A stretch of DNA of 56,822 nt from Acidobacteriaceae bacterium (GTDB taxonomy: Bacteria; Acidobacteriota; Terriglobia; Terriglobales; Acidobacteriaceae): positions 1 to 56,822 of the forward strand of contig DAHXNK010000003.1 of the NCBI GenBank assembly GCA_027365415.1. Reading direction: 5' to 3'. The notes under the pieces were generated by a model. That model did not search any database. It was not told the DNA's origin and saw only the letters and a list, made by a program, of their open reading frames with translations. The translations under genes and the position numbers were made by a program. This document shows, one piece after another, positions 45,942 through 56,822 of this stretch. Within the stretch, counting starts at the first letter, position 1, and each line of letters begins with the position of its first letter.

Positions 45942-47120
45942 ATGGGCCAGGAACGCATCCAATTTTTTGATACGACGCTGCGCGATGGAGAGCAATCGCC
46001 GGGGTGCAGCATGCACACGGCGGAAAAGCTGCGCATGGCCCGACAACTGGAGACCTTGGGCGTTGATGTGCTGGAGGCTGGCTTTGCCGTCGCCTCCGAT
46101 GGCGACTTTGACGCCGTGCAGTTGATTGCCACCGAGGTGCACGGCCCGCAGATCGCCAGCCTGGCGCGCGCCAAGCGGGAAGATATCGAAACTGCGGCGC
46201 GAGCCTTGGAGGATGCCGGAAGATCTCGCATCCACATCTTTCTTGCCAGCTCGGACATTCATCTGCAATACAAGCTGAAGATCACCCGCGAACAGGCGCT
46301 CGAACAGGCCGACGCTGCGGTTCGTCTGGCCTGCCAGTACGTCCATACTGTGGAGTTTTCCCCGGAGGATTCCACGCGCACCGACCCAGATTTTCTCTGC
46401 AAGATCGTCTCCGTGGCCGTCGAGGCCGGGGCAACGATCATCAACCTTCCTGACACCGTTGGCTATACCATTCCGCAGGAGTACGCTGCGTTGTTTCGCC
46501 TGCTGCGGCAACGGGTGCCCGGCATGGAGAAGGTCACGCTCTCCTGTCATTGCCATAACGATCTTGGCTTGGCAGTTGCCAACACGCTGGCTGCCATTGA
46601 AGCGGGAGCGCGTCAGGTGGAATGCACCATCAACGGCATCGGCGAGCGGGCAGGCAACGCAGCGCTGGAAGAAATTGCCGCCGCCATCCATGTGCGCGCC
46701 GACAAGCTGCCGTTCGTGCATGGGCTAATGCTCGATCAACTTTATCCGACCAGTCAACTGCTCAGCCAGATCATCAGCTATGGGCCGTCCCCGAATAAAG
46801 CCATCGTGGGCAGCAACGCCTTTGCGCATGAGGCGGGCATCCACCAGCACGGCATGTTGTCCAACCCTCTGTGCTACGAGATCATCACGCCCGCCGCCGT
46901 CGGCGTGCCCAGCAATCGCATGGTTCTGGGCAAGCATTCGGGACGACACGCGCTGGCTCATCGCTTGAGCGAATTGGGGCATCCCCTGGATAGTGAGCAT
47001 TTGGAGATCGTGTACCAGAGATTTATTCACCTCGCCGACCGAAAAAAGTCGGTCTATGACCAGGATTTACTTGCGCTGCTATCGGAGGCATCGGCCCCGG
47101 TTCCAACGCAGAAACCCTAG
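45942..47120 (+). CDS. leuA: 2-isopropylmalate synthase lacking the C-terminal regulatory domain
   Basis: 392-aa enzyme that condenses acetyl-CoA and 2-ketoisovalerate, the first committed step to leucine. The catalytic barrel has FFDTTLRDGEQSPG (Arg14, Asp15), the metal histidines His203/His205 in SCHCHNDLG and ECTINGIGERAGNA. The linker has AHEAGIHQHGML and LGKHSGRHAL. Usual bacterial LeuA is about 510-520 aa; this one stops right after the linker subdomains (VYDQDLLALL), so the leucine-binding feedback domain is missing. A related aldol-type synthase is possible, but leuBCD follow at once. It is divergent from lysR. Confidence 0.92.
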   Translation: MGQERIQFFDTTLRDGEQSPGCSMHTAEKLRMARQLETLGVDVLEAGFAVASDGDFDAVQLIATEVHGPQIASLARAKREDIETAARALEDAGRSRIHIFLASSDIHLQYKLKITREQALEQADAAVRLACQYVHTVEFSPEDSTRTDPDFLCKIVSVAVEAGATIINLPDTVGYTIPQEYAALFRLLRQRVPGMEKVTLSCHCHNDLGLAVANTLAAIEAGARQVECTINGIGERAGNAALEEIAAAIHVRADKLPFVHGLMLDQLYPTSQLLSQIISYGPSPNKAIVGSNAFAHEAGIHQHGMLSNPLCYEIITPAAVGVPSNRMVLGKHSGRHALAHRLSELGHPLDSEHLEIVYQRFIHLADRKKSVYDQDLLALLSEASAPVPTQKP

Positions 47121-47147
47121 GTCGGGAAGTTGGATATTTGGAGGAAG

Positions 47148-47190
47148 TCATTCTGAACGGAGCGCAGCAGAGTGAAGAATCCAGACAATT
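47148..47190. repeat. Dispersed-repeat copy between leuA and leuB
   Basis: GTCATTCTGAACGGAGCGCAGCAGAGTGAAGAATCC matches the same repeat type seen near 22360-22408. It lies 28 nt after the leuA stop. The rest of 47191-47313 contains only the leuB leader. Confidence 0.5.
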
Positions 47191-47313
47191 TTTACGGAGA
47201 GAAGTCAAAGTGTTCTGAACGAAAAAACACGATTTTGCATTCCTGAAAAAGTTGCATCGCAGTCGAAATCAGACTGCAAAGAATCAACAACACGAACGGA
47301 TGAGGTTTGAATC

Positions 47314-48435
47314 ATGCAATTGAAGATCACAGTAGTCGCAGGCGACGGCATCGGGCCAGAGGTCACTCGCGAGGCAGTCAGCATTCTCCGCGCTGTGGCG
47401 GAGTTGAACGGCCATCAATTCACATACACCGACATGCCCATCGGCGGCGTTGCGATTCGGCAACACGGCTCCCCGCTGCCAGCGGCGACGCTGGATGCAT
47501 CGCTTGCAAGCGATGCCGTGCTACTGGGCGCGGTCGGCGGCAATGAGTTCAATTCCCTGCCCCCAAGTCAGCGTCCCGAAGCTGGATTGCTGCAATTGCG
47601 ACAGGCGCTTGGCGGATTCGCCAATCTGCGTCCGTCAATTGCGTATCCGGCGCTGGCGGGCAACTCGCCGCTGCGGCCAGAGGTCACCGAAGGCGCGAAT
47701 ATTCTCTTCGTCCGCGAACTGCTCAGCGGCCTCTATTTTGGTTCGCCGCGCTCTTGGAACAAGGACACGGGCGTGGCCTTAAACACCATGTATTACACCC
47801 GCGAAGAGGTACTGCGCGTGGCCCGCGTTGCATTTGAGCAGGCCCGCAAGCGTCGCAAAAAAGTTACCTCCGTGGACAAGGCCAATGTGCTCGAAGTCTC
47901 GCAGCTCTGGCGCGCCGCCGTCACCGAAGTCGCCGCCGAGTATCCCGACGTGACGCTGGAGCACCAATATGTGGATGCCTGCGCCATGCACCTGATGAAC
48001 ACGCCGCGCAACTTTGATGTTGTGCTGGCCGAGAATCTCTTCGGCGACATCCTTACCGACGAAGCTGCCGTTATCACCGGCTCGCTAGGCATGTTGCCTT
48101 CGGCCACCGTCGGCGGCAAGGTCAATCTGTATGAGCCGGTTCACGGATCGGCTCCTGATATCGCGGGCACAGGCAAGGCCAATCCGCTGGGAGCAATTTT
48201 GACTGCGGCGATGTTGCTGCGCCATTCCGCTGGGTTGGAGCAGGACGCGCTGGCCGTGGAAAGCGCCGTCAACAACGTGCTCAGTCAGGGACATCGCACA
48301 ACGGACATTGCCCGCAGCGGCCAGCCTGGACAGCAATCGGGCCAGCACATCGTCAGCACGCAGGAGATGGGCAAGCTGGTCTTTGCCGCGCTGCATGAAA
48401 TCTTCAATCGCAAGCAGGCGCTGCACGCGGTGTAA
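47314..48435 (+). CDS. leuB: 3-isopropylmalate dehydrogenase
   Basis: 373-aa NAD-dependent beta-decarboxylating dehydrogenase. Signature parts are [27 protein letters not shown] (substrate arginines), [24 protein letters not shown] with metal aspartates, and [18 protein letters not shown] for NAD binding. It oxidises 3-isopropylmalate to 2-ketoisocaproate. The ATG follows GATGAGG. Length is normal. It lies 193 nt after leuA and 64 nt before leuC. Confidence 0.97.
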
Positions 48436-48499
48436 ATCTTTTGCAACAGAGTGGTTTTTTGTAACAACAAAGTTTTTTAGACAACAGAAGAAATGGAAA

Positions 48500-49927
48500 A
48501 TGATGGCCGCAAAAGCAAAGACACTTTTCGAGAAAATATGGGACGCACATCTGGTGGCCGAGCCTGCGGGCGAACCAGCACTGCTCTACGTTGACCTACA
48601 CCTGCTGCATGAAGTCACTTCGCCGCAGGCATTTGAAGGTCTGCGCCTAACGAATCGCAAGGTTCGCCGCCCAGACCGCTGCCTGGCTACCGTGGATCAC
48701 AACGTTCCCACCAGCAATGTTCAGGATCGGCTGGTGATTGTCGATGCCATCGCCGCCAAGCAGATTGAAACGCTGCGCCACAACTGCAAGGAATTTGGCA
48801 TTGAGATGTACGACGTGCAATCACCCAAGCAGGGCATTGTCCACGTCATCGGGCCGGAGCAGGGCTTCACCAAGCCGGGCATGACCATCGTCTGCGGCGA
48901 CAGCCACACCAGCACGCACGGAGCCTTCGGCGCGTTGGCCTTCGGCATCGGCACCAGCGAAGTTGAGCACACTCTGGCCACGCAATGCCTGCAACAATCG
49001 CGGGCCAAGTCCTTCCGCATTTCAGTAGAAGGCACACTGCCGCCTGCCGTCACCGCCAAGGATATTGCGCTCGGCATCATTGGCCGCATCGGCACCGATG
49101 GAGCCACCGGCTATGTGATCGAGTACGCTGGCTCGGCCATTCGCGCATTGTCGATGGAAGGCCGCATGACGCTCTGCAATATGAGTATCGAAGCAGGCGC
49201 ACGCGCTGGCATGATCGCGCCCGATGCCACCACCTTCGCCTATCTGAAGGGTCGCCCCAACGCGCCGCAGGGCAAGGCGTGGGAGCAGGCCGTTGCCGAG
49301 TGGAGCCAACTCTCCTCCGACGCGGATGCAAAGTTTGATCGCGAACTGGTCATTGCCGCCAGTGAATTGACCCCCTACGTTTCTTGGGGAACGAATCCCG
49401 GCATGGTGCTTCCGATTACGGGCAGCATCCCCGATCCGGCTGCCTCGACAACGGAAACCGATCGTCGCGCCTGTGAACAGGCATTGAACTATATGGATCT
49501 GAAACCGGGCACGCAGATCGAAGCGATTCCGGTCGATCGCGTCTTTATTGGTTCCTGCACCAATGGCCGCATTGAAGATCTGCGCGCGGCAGCCAAAGTC
49601 GTCTCTGGGTATAAGGTCAGCACACACGTCCACGCGATGGTGGTTCCCGGCTCGCAATTGGTCAAAGAAGAGGCCGAGCGCGAAGGCCTGGATACTATCT
49701 TCCGCAACGCAGGTTTTGAGTGGCGCGAACCGGGCTGCTCCATGTGCCTGGGCATGAACCCGGACATTTTGCAGCCGGGCGAACGTTGTGCTTCCACCAG
49801 CAATCGCAACTTTGAAGGCCGCCAGGGTCGTGGCGGACGCACGCATCTTGTTAGCCCAGCGATGGCCGCAGCCGCAGCCGTCGCTGGCCACTTTACCGAT
49901 GTTCGCAATTGGGAGTTTCGTAAATAG
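48500..49927 (+). CDS. leuC: 3-isopropylmalate dehydratase large subunit
   Basis: 475-aa aconitase-family protein. The 4Fe-4S ligands are Cys353 (GSCTNGR), Cys413 and Cys416 ([10 protein letters not shown]). Other motifs are VDHNVPT and [13 protein letters not shown]. With LeuD it isomerises 2- to 3-isopropylmalate. I chose the ATG at 48500, the first of two adjacent ATGs, just before [15 protein letters not shown], the family N terminus; earlier in-frame starts lie inside leuB. leuD starts 2 nt after the stop. Confidence 0.97.
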
Positions 49928-49929
49928 CC

Positions 49930-50580
49930 ATGCAACCCTTTCGCACACTTACGTCGCTGGCAGCCCCGCTCGACCGCGTCAATGTCGATACGGATCAGAT
50001 CATTCCAAAGCAGTTCTTAAAGCGCATTGAGCGCACCGGCTACGGAGAATTTCTCTTCTTCGACTGGCGTCGCAAGGCCGATGGTTCCCCAGATGCAGCC
50101 TTCGTCCTGAACCAGCCGCAATATAAGGACGCGAAGATTCTGCTGGCTGGGCGCAACTTCGGCTGTGGCTCCTCGCGGGAACACGCCGCTTGGGCGCTCT
50201 CCGACTTTGGCTTCCGCTGCGTCATTGCGTCGGCCTTCGCGGATATATTTTTCTCGAACGCTGGCAAAAATGGCATCGTACTGGTCGTGCTCTCGGACGA
50301 GCAAGTCGCCACGTTGATGGAGCGCGCGAAAAAGCCCGGCTATCGGCTCACCGTCTCGCTGGAAGATCAGACTGTGCGCGACGATCAGGGATTTTTGCAG
50401 AGCTTTCAGATCGACGAGTTCCGCCGCTACTGCCTGCTCGAAGGTTTGGATGACATTGGCCTGACGCTGCGTCACGCCGCTGCGCTCGACACGTTTGAGA
50501 AGCAGCACGACAAGGAATTTTGGGTTGCGCCCCGTCCGCAAGCCACCAGCACAGTGACAACACTAGGAGCGCGCGCATGA
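49930..50580 (+). CDS. leuD: 3-isopropylmalate dehydratase small subunit
   Basis: 216-aa swivel-domain partner of LeuC. It has [30 protein letters not shown], the [16 protein letters not shown] substrate loop and [12 protein letters not shown]. The family is about 200 aa, so this is full length with a short tail. The stop overlaps the ilvD start as ATGA, which joins the leu and ilv halves of the array by translational coupling. Confidence 0.97.
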
Positions 50581-52289
50581 GCACTCCGGAAAAGAAAAAT
50601 GAAATGAAAAACGGCACTCACAATCCGAAGCGCAACAGCATCCCGCTCACCGAAGGCTCCAGCCGCGCTGCGGCACGCGCCATGCTCCATGCCGTTGGCT
50701 ACACCCGCGAAGATCTGGCCAAGCCCATCATCGGCATCGCCAACACCTGGACGGAGATCGGCCCGTGCAACTTCCATCTGCGCATCATCTCCGAGGCCGT
50801 CAAACAAGGCATCCGCGATGCGGGGGGCACGCCGATGGAGTTCAACACCATCACCATCTCTGATGGCATCACGATGGGCACGCAGGGCATGAAGGCCTCA
50901 CTCATCAGCCGCGAAGTGATTGCGGATTCGGTCGAGCTGGTCGCGCGCGGCAATCTCTTCGACGGTCTGATTGCCATCGCAGGCTGCGATAAAAATCTGC
51001 CCGGAACGGTCATGGCGCTGGCGCGTCTCGACATTCCCTCGCTTATGCTCTACGGCGGCTCCATTGCGCCCGGACACCTCCACGGAAAAGACCTTACCGT
51101 GCAGGATGTCTTTGAAGCGCAAGGCTCCTATGCGGCTGGAAAAATAGACGACAAGGAACTGGAAGCCGTGGAAACCCACGCCTGCCCCGGTGTTGGAGCG
51201 TGCGGCGGCCAGTTCACGGCCAACACAATGGCGATGGCCTTCGAGTTTCTTGGCATCTCGCCCATTGGACTAACCGGCGTGCCCGCGCTTTCTCCAGAAA
51301 AGGGCAAGGCCTCGCGTGCTGCTGGCGCGCTTGTCATCGAACTGGCAAAAAACGACCTGCGCCCATCAAAAATTATCACCCGCGCCTCGCTTGAAAATGC
51401 CATCGCCAGCGTCGCCGCCTCCGGTGGATCGACCAATGCCGTGCTGCATCTGATCGCTATCGCGCATGAGGCGGGCATCGAACTTTCTGTCGATGATTTT
51501 GATCGCATCAGCCGCCAGACTCCCCTGCTCTGCGACATGAAGCCCGGTGGCCGCTATGTAGCCACGGACTATCAGGAAGCTGGCGGCAGCCGACTGCTGG
51601 CGCAGCGTTTGCTTGCTGGCAAAAAAATTGATGGCAGCACGCTGAATGTCTCTGGCCGCACGCTGGCCGAAGAGGCTGCGCTCGCAAAAGAAAAACCAGG
51701 CCAGATTGTCATCCACTCGCTCGACAAACCCCTGAAGGCGACCGGAGGATTGGTTATCCTCAAAGGCAACCTCACCCCCGAAGGCTGCGTCATCAAAGTT
51801 GCCGGGCACGAACGTCTGACGCATCGCGGTCCGGCCCGTGTCTTTGAAACCGAAGAAGCGTGCTTTGCCGCCGTGCAATCTGGAAAGATTCTGCCCAATG
51901 ATGTATTGGTGATTCGCTATGAAGGCCCACGCGGTGGCCCCGGAATGAGAGAAATGCTGCACGTCACCGCAGCCATTGCGGGCATACCAGAATTGAGCGA
52001 GACCGTCGCGCTGCTCACCGATGGTCGATTCTCCGGCGCGACACGCGGCCTGATGGCTGGACATGTCTCTCCCGAAGCCGCGCTCGGCGGGCCAATTGCC
52101 GCTGTGCGCGATGGCGACATCATCGTCTTTGATATTCCAAAGCGCGAGCTGCGCGTCGAGTTGAGCGATGCTGAAATTGCAGCCCGCATGAAGAACTGGC
52201 AAGCCCCTGCACCGCAGTTTACGCGCGGTGTCTTTCGTAAATATGCCGACCGTGTGTCCTCAGCGGCGCACGGCGCCATCACCAACTGA
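50577..52289 (+). CDS. ilvD: Dihydroxy-acid dehydratase
   Basis: 570-aa Fe-S dehydratase that makes the 2-keto acids of valine and isoleucine. Cluster cysteines are visible at [15 protein letters not shown] (Cys137) and [18 protein letters not shown] (Cys203/Cys209). [17 protein letters not shown] and the C-terminal [20 protein letters not shown] are diagnostic. The ATG at 50577 overlaps the leuD stop. A stretch rich in Lys and Asn (about residues 4-18) precedes the conserved domain. Confidence 0.97.
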
Positions 52290-52304
52290 CGGAGATACCC
52301 TGCC

Positions 52305-54101
52305 ATGAATAACTCCGACAACGCGAATCATGCAGACCCTGCGATTTACAGCCATCCCACGCGCCTGACTGGTGCCGAAACCCTATGGGCCACGCTGGTC
52401 GGCGAAGGCGTGCGCGATGTCTTCGGCTATCCCGGCGGAGCGATTCTGCCCGCCTACGATGCGCTGCGGAAATTCCCCCTCCGCCACATTCTGGTGCGCC
52501 ATGAGCAGGGCGCAGCCCACATGGCCGATGGCTATGCGCGCGCCTCAGGCCGCGTCGGCGTAGCCGTGGCTACCTCCGGCCCCGGCGCAACCAACATGGT
52601 CACTGGCATTGCCAACGCGATGATGGATTCCATTCCGCTGGTCTGCATCACCGGACAAGTCTCCAGCACTGTGCTCGGCACGGACGCATTTCAGGAAGTG
52701 GACATCACAGGCATTACGCTGCCCATCACCAAACACAACTATCTGATTCATCGCGCCGAAGACATTGCCCCCGCCATTCGCGAGGCATTTCTCATCGCAA
52801 AATCTGGTCGTCCCGGCCCGGTGCTGATTGACATCACCAAGAATGCACAGCAGGCATCCGCCATCTTCGATTTCGCCGCCGCCGCGCCCGCTGCCTATCG
52901 CCCGCATCCCATGCTGCGCGCCGATGCCAGCTCCATCCGTGATGCTGCCGAGCTGCTGCGCTCAGCCAAGCGCCCGGTCATTCTAGCCGGACACGGCATT
53001 CTGCAATCGAATGCTATGGAGCAAGTCCGCGCGCTCGCCGAACGGATGCAGATTCCCGTTGCCTGCACGCTGCTCGGACTCGGAGCCTTCCCTGCCTCGC
53101 ATCCGCTGAATCTGGGCATGATGGGGATGCACGGCGAAAGCTGGGTCAATCAGGCCATCCAGCAATCTGACCTGCTGCTTGCCTGCGGAATGCGCTTTGA
53201 TGATCGCGTTACCGGATCCTTGGCGACATACGCGCTCCAAGCCAAAAAAATTCATATCGAGATCGACCCCTCAGAGATCGGAAAAAATGTTCCGGTCGAT
53301 GTCGCGCTGATCGGCGACCTGAAGGAAGTGCTGGAAGTCTTGCTGCCAGCGCTACCAAAAATCAAAAGCAGTGAGTGGCTGCAAGCCATCGACGCCATGA
53401 AGGGCGATGCCGCCGTGCGCGACATCCAGAACCTTCCCGACGATGGCCATCTCTACGCCGCGCATGTGATGCACGATCTCTGGCACGCCACGAGCGGCAA
53501 CGCCATCATCGCCACCGACGTAGGCCAGCATCAAATGTGGGAAGCGCAGTATTACAAGCATGAGCATCCACGCACACTCATCACCTCCGGCGGCTTGGGC
53601 ACGATGGGCTTCGCGCTGCCAGCGGCCATTGGAGCCAAGATTGCCTGCCCCGACAAAGAAGTCTGGGTCATTGCAGGCGACGGCGGCTTCCAGATGACCA
53701 GCCCAGAGTTGGCCACCATCGCGCAGGAAAAAATCAAAGTCAACCTTGCCGTCATCAACAATGGGTATCTCGGCATGGTGCGCCAGTGGCAGGAGCGCTT
53801 CTACGACAAGAATTACGAATGCACGCCGCTGCTCAGCCCGGATTTTGTCAAACTGGCTGGCGCGCACGGCATCGCCGGAGCCACGGCGCGGAAACGCCCT
53901 GAAGCCGTGTCCGCCATTGAGGCTGCGCGCAAACATGACGGCGCATTCCTTATCGACTTCCGCGTGGAGCAGGAGGATTCCGTCTACCCGATGGTACCCG
54001 CCGGAGCCGCGCTGCATGAGATGATTCGTCGCCCGAAAAGCGATCCGCTTAAAAATAATCAACGTCGCAATCCGCTGGTGGAAACCGCATCCGACGTTTA
54101 A
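52305..54101 (+). CDS. ilvB: Acetolactate synthase large (catalytic) subunit
   Basis: 598-aa ThDP- and FAD-dependent enzyme. The catalytic glutamate is Glu67 in RHEQGAAHMADGYARASG. The FAD domain spans the middle (VPVDVALIGDLK), and the ThDP/Mg motif is GDGGFQMTSPELATIAQ followed by NNGYLGMVRQWQE. It condenses pyruvate with pyruvate or 2-ketobutyrate to start valine, leucine and isoleucine synthesis. It is 15 nt after ilvD and 32 nt before its regulatory subunit gene. Confidence 0.97.
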   Translation: MNNSDNANHADPAIYSHPTRLTGAETLWATLVGEGVRDVFGYPGGAILPAYDALRKFPLRHILVRHEQGAAHMADGYARASGRVGVAVATSGPGATNMVTGIANAMMDSIPLVCITGQVSSTVLGTDAFQEVDITGITLPITKHNYLIHRAEDIAPAIREAFLIAKSGRPGPVLIDITKNAQQASAIFDFAAAAPAAYRPHPMLRADASSIRDAAELLRSAKRPVILAGHGILQSNAMEQVRALAERMQIPVACTLLGLGAFPASHPLNLGMMGMHGESWVNQAIQQSDLLLACGMRFDDRVTGSLATYALQAKKIHIEIDPSEIGKNVPVDVALIGDLKEVLEVLLPALPKIKSSEWLQAIDAMKGDAAVRDIQNLPDDGHLYAAHVMHDLWHATSGNAIIATDVGQHQMWEAQYYKHEHPRTLITSGGLGTMGFALPAAIGAKIACPDKEVWVIAGDGGFQMTSPELATIAQEKIKVNLAVINNGYLGMVRQWQERFYDKNYECTPLLSPDFVKLAGAHGIAGATARKRPEAVSAIEAARKHDGAFLIDFRVEQEDSVYPMVPAGAALHEMIRRPKSDPLKNNQRRNPLVETASDV

Positions 54102-54133
54102 CGCTTCAAGCAACAACAAGAGAGGATACATCC

Positions 54134-55835
<1,702 letters not shown>

Positions 55836-55937: not shown

Positions 55938-56822
55938 CTAGGTGATGGTGAGGGTGATGGTTGTGGTCTGGGGTGTTCCCGATGTTGGGGTCGCCGTGAC
56001 GGTCACGGTTGTAGTCCCCGCAGGCGTGACGCGCACCGCCGCCGTATTCGAAGTCAAGCCAGCGCAGCCGGAGATCCCTGCGGCCAGCGCTCCCGTCATC
56101 AACACCAGCAGGCAGAGTTGCAACATCCGCTGCCGCGTCTTTGAGAGATTCCGCTTGCGTCCGAAGGCGGCCAGTCCGGCCATGCTCCCCGGCCACCAAA
56201 AGGCCAGCGCGGGCAGGATCGGACTCAGCGGGCTTTGTTGCGAACCGAACGGGTTGGGCATGGCCTGCATCCGCGCCAACGGCGGCGTGGTCGTTGCCCC
56301 GGTCTCGATGTTCAGCGCGACACTGACCGCCGTATTGCTGCCATTCAGCGTCACGACGGTGGTTTGCGCCCCCGCATTCCCTGGAAAGTAGCAGTATGTA
56401 TTGGCGGGCAGGCCCGTGCAGCTCAGCGTCAGCTTGCCGCTGTAGCCGCCCGTCGGCGTAATCGTCAGCGTGCTGGCGTCAATTCCTCCCGTCGGAATCG
56501 TCAGCGCGGTTGGCGTTGCCGCCATCGTATAGCTGGGCGGAATCGGCGCAGCCACCGTCACCATCACCGTCGAAGAGGTGCTGGCTGCGTAGTCCGTCGT
56601 TCCCACATAGCTGGCCGTGAAGGCTGGATTGCCGCCCGCTACCAGCGTGGTGGTGGTAAAGGTTGCCACGCCATTGGTCACCGTGCCTGGGCCGAGAAGC
56701 GTGGTTCCGTTGTAGAAGTTCACCGTGCCACTCGGCGTTCCAGCGCTGCTACTTACCGTCGCCGTTAACGTTACGCTACCGCCTGCAGTCGCGCTTGTCG
56801 GAGATGCTGTTAGCGCTGTTGT
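55938..56822 (-). CDS. Ig-like repeat surface protein, 3' part (5' end beyond the window)
   Basis: The frame is open to the right edge, giving 294 residues without a start. It begins inside a bacterial Ig-like repeat (TALTASPTSATAGGSVTLTA, then GTVNFYNGTTLLG), followed by a second Ig-like region (TPTALTIPTGGIDASTLTITP). The C terminus has a hydrophobic stretch (LPALAFWWPGSMAGLAAFG), a basic RKRNLSKTRQR, a second hydrophobic stretch ending ISGCAG and a Thr-rich beta tail (TPAGTTTVTVTATP). This end module recurs in Acidobacteria surface proteins. Probably exported and anchored at the envelope; ligand unknown. Confidence 0.8.
   Translation of the reverse strand, partial: TTALTASPTSATAGGSVTLTATVSSSAGTPSGTVNFYNGTTLLGPGTVTNGVATFTTTTLVAGGNPAFTASYVGTTDYAASTSSTVMVTVAAPIPPSYTMAATPTALTIPTGGIDASTLTITPTGGYSGKLTLSCTGLPANTYCYFPGNAGAQTTVVTLNGSNTAVSVALNIETGATTTPPLARMQAMPNPFGSQQSPLSPILPALAFWWPGSMAGLAAFGRKRNLSKTRQRMLQLCLLVLMTGALAAGISGCAGLTSNTAAVRVTPAGTTTVTVTATPTSGTPQTTTITLTIT

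Follow-up and report, generated by a model that had tools for sequence, protein, structure and literature searches.

RESULTS

A C-terminal module that may act as a lipid anchor within a divided Ig-like domain

We analyzed a 56,822-nucleotide stretch of DNA from an Acidobacteriaceae bacterium (assembly GCA_027365415.1, contig DAHXNK010000003.1, positions 1 to 56,822; here called the window), at one end of which an open reading frame (ORF) on the minus strand encodes immunoglobulin (Ig)-like repeats followed by an unusual C-terminal module. Our favored reading, to which we assign a probability of roughly 0.6 from sequence comparison and structure modeling, is that this module is a C-terminal lipid anchor in which a type II signal peptide is inserted into a secreted protein's last Ig-like domain. 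An N-terminal Sec signal would export the chain; the first of two hydrophobic segments (transmembrane segment 1 [TM1]) would halt transfer in an out-to-in orientation, with the arginine- and lysine-rich link after it remaining cytoplasmic; and the second (TM2) would run in to out, placing a lipobox cysteine at the periplasmic face, the site of Lgt and LspA action. Lgt would then lipidate the cysteine, a step that the sequence features make rather likely, LspA may cut before it, and the 33 to 54 residues of the tail would provide the last two Ig strands. Because the tail would provide these strands, the large chain would stay tied to the lipid even after the backbone is cut. More tentatively, we propose that LspA does cut and that the lipidated β-hairpin is kept as the clasped last two strands, which would hold a large surface protein noncovalently and without a sortase.

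The ORF (55941-56822, minus strand) encodes 294 residues and is open on its upstream side, where the edge of the window is also the edge of the contig. Toward its C terminus it encodes, in order, an Ig-like stretch, a hydrophobic segment, the basic string RKRNLSKTRQR, a second hydrophobic segment ending in ISGCAG, and a threonine-rich tail, VTPAGTTTVTVTATP; 41 residues follow the cysteine. A preliminary description made from the sequence alone had listed these features, all of which are present, though on the minus strand (it named none). The Ig-like repeats that it placed before the module correspond to a Pfam Big_3_5 repeat and to a second Ig-like stretch, which has no Pfam name over the cutoff and is the one that the module interrupts. 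The features, all on the minus strand, are as follows.

56550..56813, minus: Big_3_5 Ig-like repeat that precedes the split domain (Pfam PF16640, residues 4-91 of the product, E = 1.3e-18)
56301..56534, minus: seven strands forming the first part of the divided Ig-like domain (AlphaFold2 [AF2] strands within residues 10-87 of a 207-residue piece)
56160..56228, minus: TM1 with its lead-in LSPILPA, expected to run out to in (sequence, hydropathy)
56127..56159, minus: basic link RKRNLSKTRQR, expected to be cytoplasmic and to form the n-region of the internal signal (sequence; lysine and arginine content of 81 tails)
56067..56126, minus: TM2, the putative h-region, with the lipobox-like ISG at its end (sequence; 81-tail comparison)
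56064..56066, minus: invariant cysteine of ISG-C, residue 253, predicted lipidation site (81 of 81 tails)
56019..56063, minus: flexible linker after the cysteine (predicted local distance difference test [pLDDT] score below 50 at residues 157-175 of the 207-residue piece)
55986..56018, minus: penultimate strand of the split Ig domain (AF2 strand at residues 182-192, block pLDDT 91-94; the range aligned by VIA-align reaches residue 207)
55944..55970, minus: last strand of the split Ig domain (AF2 strand at residues 198-206)
55938..55940, minus: stop codon (ORF list)

The anchor cysteine sits in a lipobox-like context in 81 tails

We compared 81 tails, comprising the window and 80 fetched places with ORFs that were selected from the listed matches to the NCBIfam profile NF058595 (described below) and from places in the window's own genome. 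A near-duplicate genome (G163) was omitted, one own-genome contig (C137) was included despite scoring below the profile cutoff, and four tails that escaped the automatic hydropathy rule (L094, L103, L105, and L136) were aligned by motif. The cysteine is kept in all 81 tails and is the only invariant column in a divergent alignment of 17 rows. It is preceded by glycine (59 tails), alanine (15), or serine (7) and followed by glycine (63), serine (8), alanine (8), threonine (1), or leucine (1), never by aspartate. The last basic residue lies 14 to 24 residues upstream of it, with no acidic residue between the two in any tail, and the 15-residue link holds at least three lysines or arginines and a mean of 0.02 acidic residues. 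The best 15-residue hydropathy has a median of 2.0 for TM1 (above 1.2 in 77 of 81) and of 2.3 for TM2, whose median length is 19 residues; 33 to 54 residues follow the cysteine. The PS00013 core, in the form that we take this pattern to have, served as a lipobox test and fits 63 of the 81 anchor cysteines, the window's ISGC included, versus 122 of the 1070 other cysteines found beyond residue 45 of the same proteins.

Under a loose rule of our own (a hydrophobic segment, with a start allowed within the first 160 codons), 70 of the 77 ORFs that are closed upstream begin with a Sec-like signal, and a lipobox-like string accompanies it in 5 of these 70. Because hydrophobic N-terminal signals are this frequent and few are lipobox-like, export from the front is probable, with the lipobox carried at the back. 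Judged by these sequence features, the module looks like a type II signal peptide placed internally, with the topology required by Lgt and LspA. The internal, lipobox-like Gly-Cys had already been pointed out in the preliminary description, correctly, and it fits a type II signal peptide lying within the hairpin.

The DNA encoding the 55-residue hairpin (56064-56228) is 87 to 97% identical between the window and three paralogues from the same genome (on contigs C86, C108, and C144; L052, L053, and L055), and the Ig part and tail of the same paralogues are 62 to 71% identical to the window's; a further paralogue, on contig C138, lay outside this comparison. This pattern suggests that the hairpin cassette may be exchanged or homogenized among paralogues.

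The tail is predicted to complete an Ig-like domain divided by the hairpin

By sequence profile and structure prediction, the β-rich tail supplies the two final strands of an Ig-like domain that has its first part ahead of the hairpin. An Ig model of 93 positions, built from 18 intact internal Ig repeats of seven proteins, finds a match ahead of the hairpin in 80 of 81 proteins and, in some register, downstream of the cysteine in 70 of 81. Tails in the right register at an E value of ≤0.01 number 63 of 81, versus averages of 0.0 across 20 shuffled sets and 0.4 across 20 sets of random windows from the same proteins. At looser limits, the match to the first part extends to model position 69 (median, n = 81), the in-register tail begins at position 65 (median, n = 58), and a median gap of 67.5 residues separates the two matched parts (n = 58). 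The first part of the window's own split domain matches positions 1 to 69 (E = 8.7e-11). In 5 proteins of the 81, internal repeats are matched by a profile of the last 34 residues.

An AF2 model of the 207-residue window piece, computed with nine relatives, points the same way. The first Ig part has block pLDDT values of 82 to 95 from residue 11 on, the tail strands reach 91 to 94 in this context, and the hairpin region is of low confidence. Residues 10 to 207 of the model superpose on an Ig domain of a Micromonospora sialidase (2ber, residues 405 to 502) over 97 residues at 1.8 Å with a Z score of 11.9. This superposition comes from VIA-align, which re-examines only Foldseek's matches and reports only the first and last aligned residues; since the first part has about 80 ordered residues and 97 are superposed, we infer that the remainder of the fold comes from the tail strands. 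The predicted fold is the same in both proteins, but the domain is contiguous in the sialidase and interrupted here.

The tail is exchanged for another C-terminal signal on a shared cargo

Ten full-length tail proteins were scanned for domains. They carry pro-kumamolisin (of kumamolisin-type proteases), NHL, beta-helix, TIG, and Big_3_5 domains among others, two of them having no Pfam match at an E value of ≤0.01. Their NCBIfam domains include "choice-of-anchor" Q, D, and Z and, in three proteins, TIGR03118; NF058595 itself matches 7 of the 10 at an E value of ≤0.01.

TIGR03118 is named after PEP-CTERM proteins and, among the 199 genomes of the phylum, is found in 23. Within the window's family, 14 distinct TIGR03118 proteins score over the cutoff, of which, with ends classified by eye, nine carry this tail, one ends in PEP-CTERM, and four have neither; this tail appears, again by eye, in none of the 12 readable TIGR03118 proteins from outside the family. 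The count excludes one open locus (L176), one misread locus (L186), and three family matches below the cutoff, and two of the loci (L181 and L182) come from near-identical genomes. Four of the nine tails also belong to the 81-tail set (L132/L174, L092/L180, L123/L183, and L098/L185). One genome (G130) encodes both versions, with one TIGR03118 protein ending in PEP-CTERM (L175, by eye) and the other in this tail (L185). Because the same cargo domain carries either PEP-CTERM or this tail within a single genome, the tail probably does the anchoring job; this exchange is the best evidence for that role.

The module recurs in the sampled family genomes and matches a cataloged profile

The window protein matches NF058595 (invert_tail) with 42.2 bits (E = 8.6e-11; curated cutoff, 37) and with 48.4 bits in a genome search, and this is its sole NCBIfam match at an E value of ≤10. 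The description line, "lipo-invert putative C-terminal anchoring domain" (NCBIfam release 20), concerns the same module, which is thus already cataloged as a putative anchor; judged by its name and description line, the entry mentions neither a split Ig domain nor an internal type II signal. A literature search on "lipo-invert" and "NF058595" found no paper, and neither did a broader search for an acidobacterial signal of this kind, with most subscription papers outside the reach of both. Within that scope, we found no earlier description of the domain-splitting architecture or of a mechanism by conventional enzymes.

We searched 199 genomes of the phylum, 20 of them from the window's family, with NF058595 (E ≤ 0.001, at most 21 candidates scored per genome). 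All 20 family genomes have matches, 5 to 18 each, which sum to 259 when individual matches are taken unchecked. The curated cutoff is passed by 23 of the 199 genomes, namely, all 20 of the family and three outside it. The window's own genome has eight places over the cutoff, including the window's, and 12 further places at an E value of ≤1.

Matches at an E value of ≤0.001 also occur in 76 genomes from outside the family. The module is absent from the best match of each of the ten best-scoring of the 179 nonfamily genomes (L037 to L046): by eye, six of these matches resemble N-terminal lipoprotein signal peptides (starts unverified), and the other four are uninterrupted Ig-like domains. Outside the family, the two components of the module thus occur apart, and borderline NF058595 matches need care because the best outside matches are lipoprotein signals or intact Ig domains. 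The profile search across Acidobacteriota that the preliminary description had proposed does find the module in other proteins; its suggestion of similar ends on many acidobacterial surface proteins is borne out in 20 of 20 family genomes and in none of these ten outside matches.

Homologues of lipoprotein-pathway enzymes are present

The window's genome (G000) encodes one LspA homologue, which shows GNLYDR and FNIAD, presumably its characteristic motifs, and two Lgt homologues, the pair that the window's genus has (contig C125, 8085-8792 [L158], and contig C169, 35236-35982 [L159]). One Lgt homologue is of a divergent GDGDYG type and keeps GRIGC; the other reads FANLGAFAAGSNYG where it aligns to GRxGCFxAGCCYG. 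Across the phylum, Lgt is found in 193 of 199 genomes. At least two Lgt matches occur in 18 of 20 family genomes versus 53 of 179 others (Fisher P = 1.8e-7, from a hand count over genomes that are not independent), and in 12 of 21 genomes in a wider family sample with about one genome per genus; matches may be fragments. A second Lgt dedicated to the module was dropped as a candidate in view of these cautions, of the wider sample, and of two genomes (G023 and G121), each with a single Lgt match and 12 profile matches.

Exosortase is found in 67 of the 199 genomes and in 16 of the 20 from the family. It was not found in the window's genome (90% complete) or in three other family genomes (G007, G023, and G179), and these four hold 11 to 16 NF058595 matches; on this ground we reject exosortase as a necessary processing enzyme. 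Since exosortase is unfound in these four genomes and LspA and Lgt homologues are present, enzymes of the lipoprotein pathway could suffice, and a second protease could possibly act too.

These results divide the earlier proposal of an anchoring or sorting signal that resembles PEP-CTERM and is processed by an unknown enzyme. A recurring, probably anchoring C-terminal signal is upheld by the TIGR03118 exchange. The likeness to PEP-CTERM is weakened: no PEP string occurs within the 90 residues before the cysteine or after it in any of the 81 tails, including the window's, the chain continues past the basic cluster, and exosortase is missing from the matches of 4 of 20 genomes. An unknown enzyme gives way, as the leading idea, to the LspA and Lgt homologues as known candidates. 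That the β tail belongs to a divided Ig domain had gone unnoticed in the preliminary description.

Weighing the lipid-anchor reading against its alternatives

Several observations weigh against a lipid anchor in a split Ig domain. The hairpin would stay on the large chain after an LspA cut, which implies either retention in the inner membrane or a further cut before TM1. The PS00013 core is missed by 18 of 81 tails. No Ig match follows the cysteine in 11 of 81 proteins, and some of the other 70 matches are out of register; the window's own tail matches the Ig model weakly (E = 0.7), and that model was built on repeats from only seven proteins. Overall AF2 confidence is modest (mean pLDDT 71.3, predicted template modeling [pTM] score 0.55, 10 sequences), and Foldseek with the AF2 model gave no match at an E value of ≤0.001. 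The tail folded alone already forms a hairpin with a block pLDDT of 86, so the 91 to 94 reached in context supports docking modestly and does not prove it. Three of the 10 full-length proteins, all from the window's genome, lack an NF058595 match in the protein scan, and the same three tails did match in the genome search. Lgt is so nearly universal that its presence tests nothing, and, as judged from the alignment, the conserved GRxGCF stretch is gone from one Lgt homologue of the window's genus, the second being of a divergent type.

The topological difficulty would be solved in a two-step variant of the same reading, in which lipidation and the LspA cut are joined by a second protease that removes the hairpin before TM1, and the Ig domain with its lipidated strands would reach the outer membrane or the surface. 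In E. coli, a residue other than aspartate after the lipidated cysteine favors the outer membrane, and aspartate never occupies this position in the 81 tails. We nevertheless consider this variant rather doubtful: inspection by eye showed no conserved cut site in the linker ahead of TM1, and no enzyme for this cut was identified.

It is unlikely, in our view, that the module is a plain two-helix hairpin anchor, with TM1 and TM2 lodged in the inner membrane and the cysteine a structural residue that is neither lipidated nor cut. A pair of hydrophobic segments with a basic link suffices for anchoring, but such a hairpin leaves unexplained why a cysteine occupies the lipobox place in 81 of 81 tails, always after glycine, alanine, or serine, when the other columns vary. 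A disulfide is improbable as the general explanation, since from 150 residues before the anchor cysteine to the C terminus this cysteine is alone in 7 of 81 proteins and the cysteine count is odd in 56 of 81.

A sortase- or exosortase-like signal, in which a dedicated intramembrane protease would recognize TM1 and the arginine cluster, cut near TM1, and discard the rest, gains some appeal from the resemblance of TM1 and its arginine cluster to the ends of PEP-CTERM and MYXO-CTERM signals, from the PEP-CTERM end of one TIGR03118 cargo, and from the presence of exosortase, the only sorting protease searched for, in most family genomes, but is very unlikely given the tails without a PEP string, the four genomes without an exosortase match, a sole invariant column that is the cysteine after TM2, and a tail that retains Ig strands.

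Genomic context

An ORF run at 45942-55835 on the plus strand resembles leu- and ilv-like branched-chain amino acid genes, which we name presumptively from their translations; its last member, an ilvC-like ORF (54759-55835, plus strand), brings the run into convergence with the tail gene. The ends of two other contigs of the same genome (C153 [L008] and C151 [L009]) carry a 39-residue stretch that is 100% identical to the window's tail. With three contigs ending in such sequence, the window's among them, the assembly probably breaks in repeated Ig or tail sequence.

DISCUSSION

Bacterial lipoproteins are viewed as N-terminally anchored because LspA exposes the lipidated cysteine at that end. 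If the lipid-anchor reading is true, widespread lipoprotein enzymes could likewise produce anchors at the C terminus, the split Ig domain serving as the joint, and the substrates of LspA would include internal ones. The place of many large secreted proteins in the envelope, as gauged by the matches in the 20 family genomes, would then be defined, and predictors restricted to N termini would miss these proteins.

The closest likeness is to the type II signal of bacterial lipoproteins, which likewise has a basic n-region, a hydrophobic h-region, and a lipobox-like motif with an invariant cysteine, often followed by a glycine/serine stretch. In those proteins, the signal is N-terminal and the whole mature protein follows the cysteine, whereas here the signal is internal, lies 33 to 54 residues from the C terminus, and is preceded by another transmembrane segment and an entire protein. 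PEP-CTERM signals and exosortase share with the module a transmembrane segment with an arginine cluster and the cargo family TIGR03118; they differ in that the PEP string is absent here, the chain continues through TM2 and the tail, and exosortase is unfound in 4 of 20 family genomes. MYXO-CTERM (PMC11980579) is also a C-terminal anchoring signal with an arginine cluster and an invariant cysteine for which lipidation has been proposed, Lgt being a candidate enzyme. In MYXO-CTERM, the cysteine comes before a single transmembrane segment that is followed by a C-terminal arginine cluster, whereas the cysteine of the module described here comes after TM2, in the topology of a normal lipoprotein.
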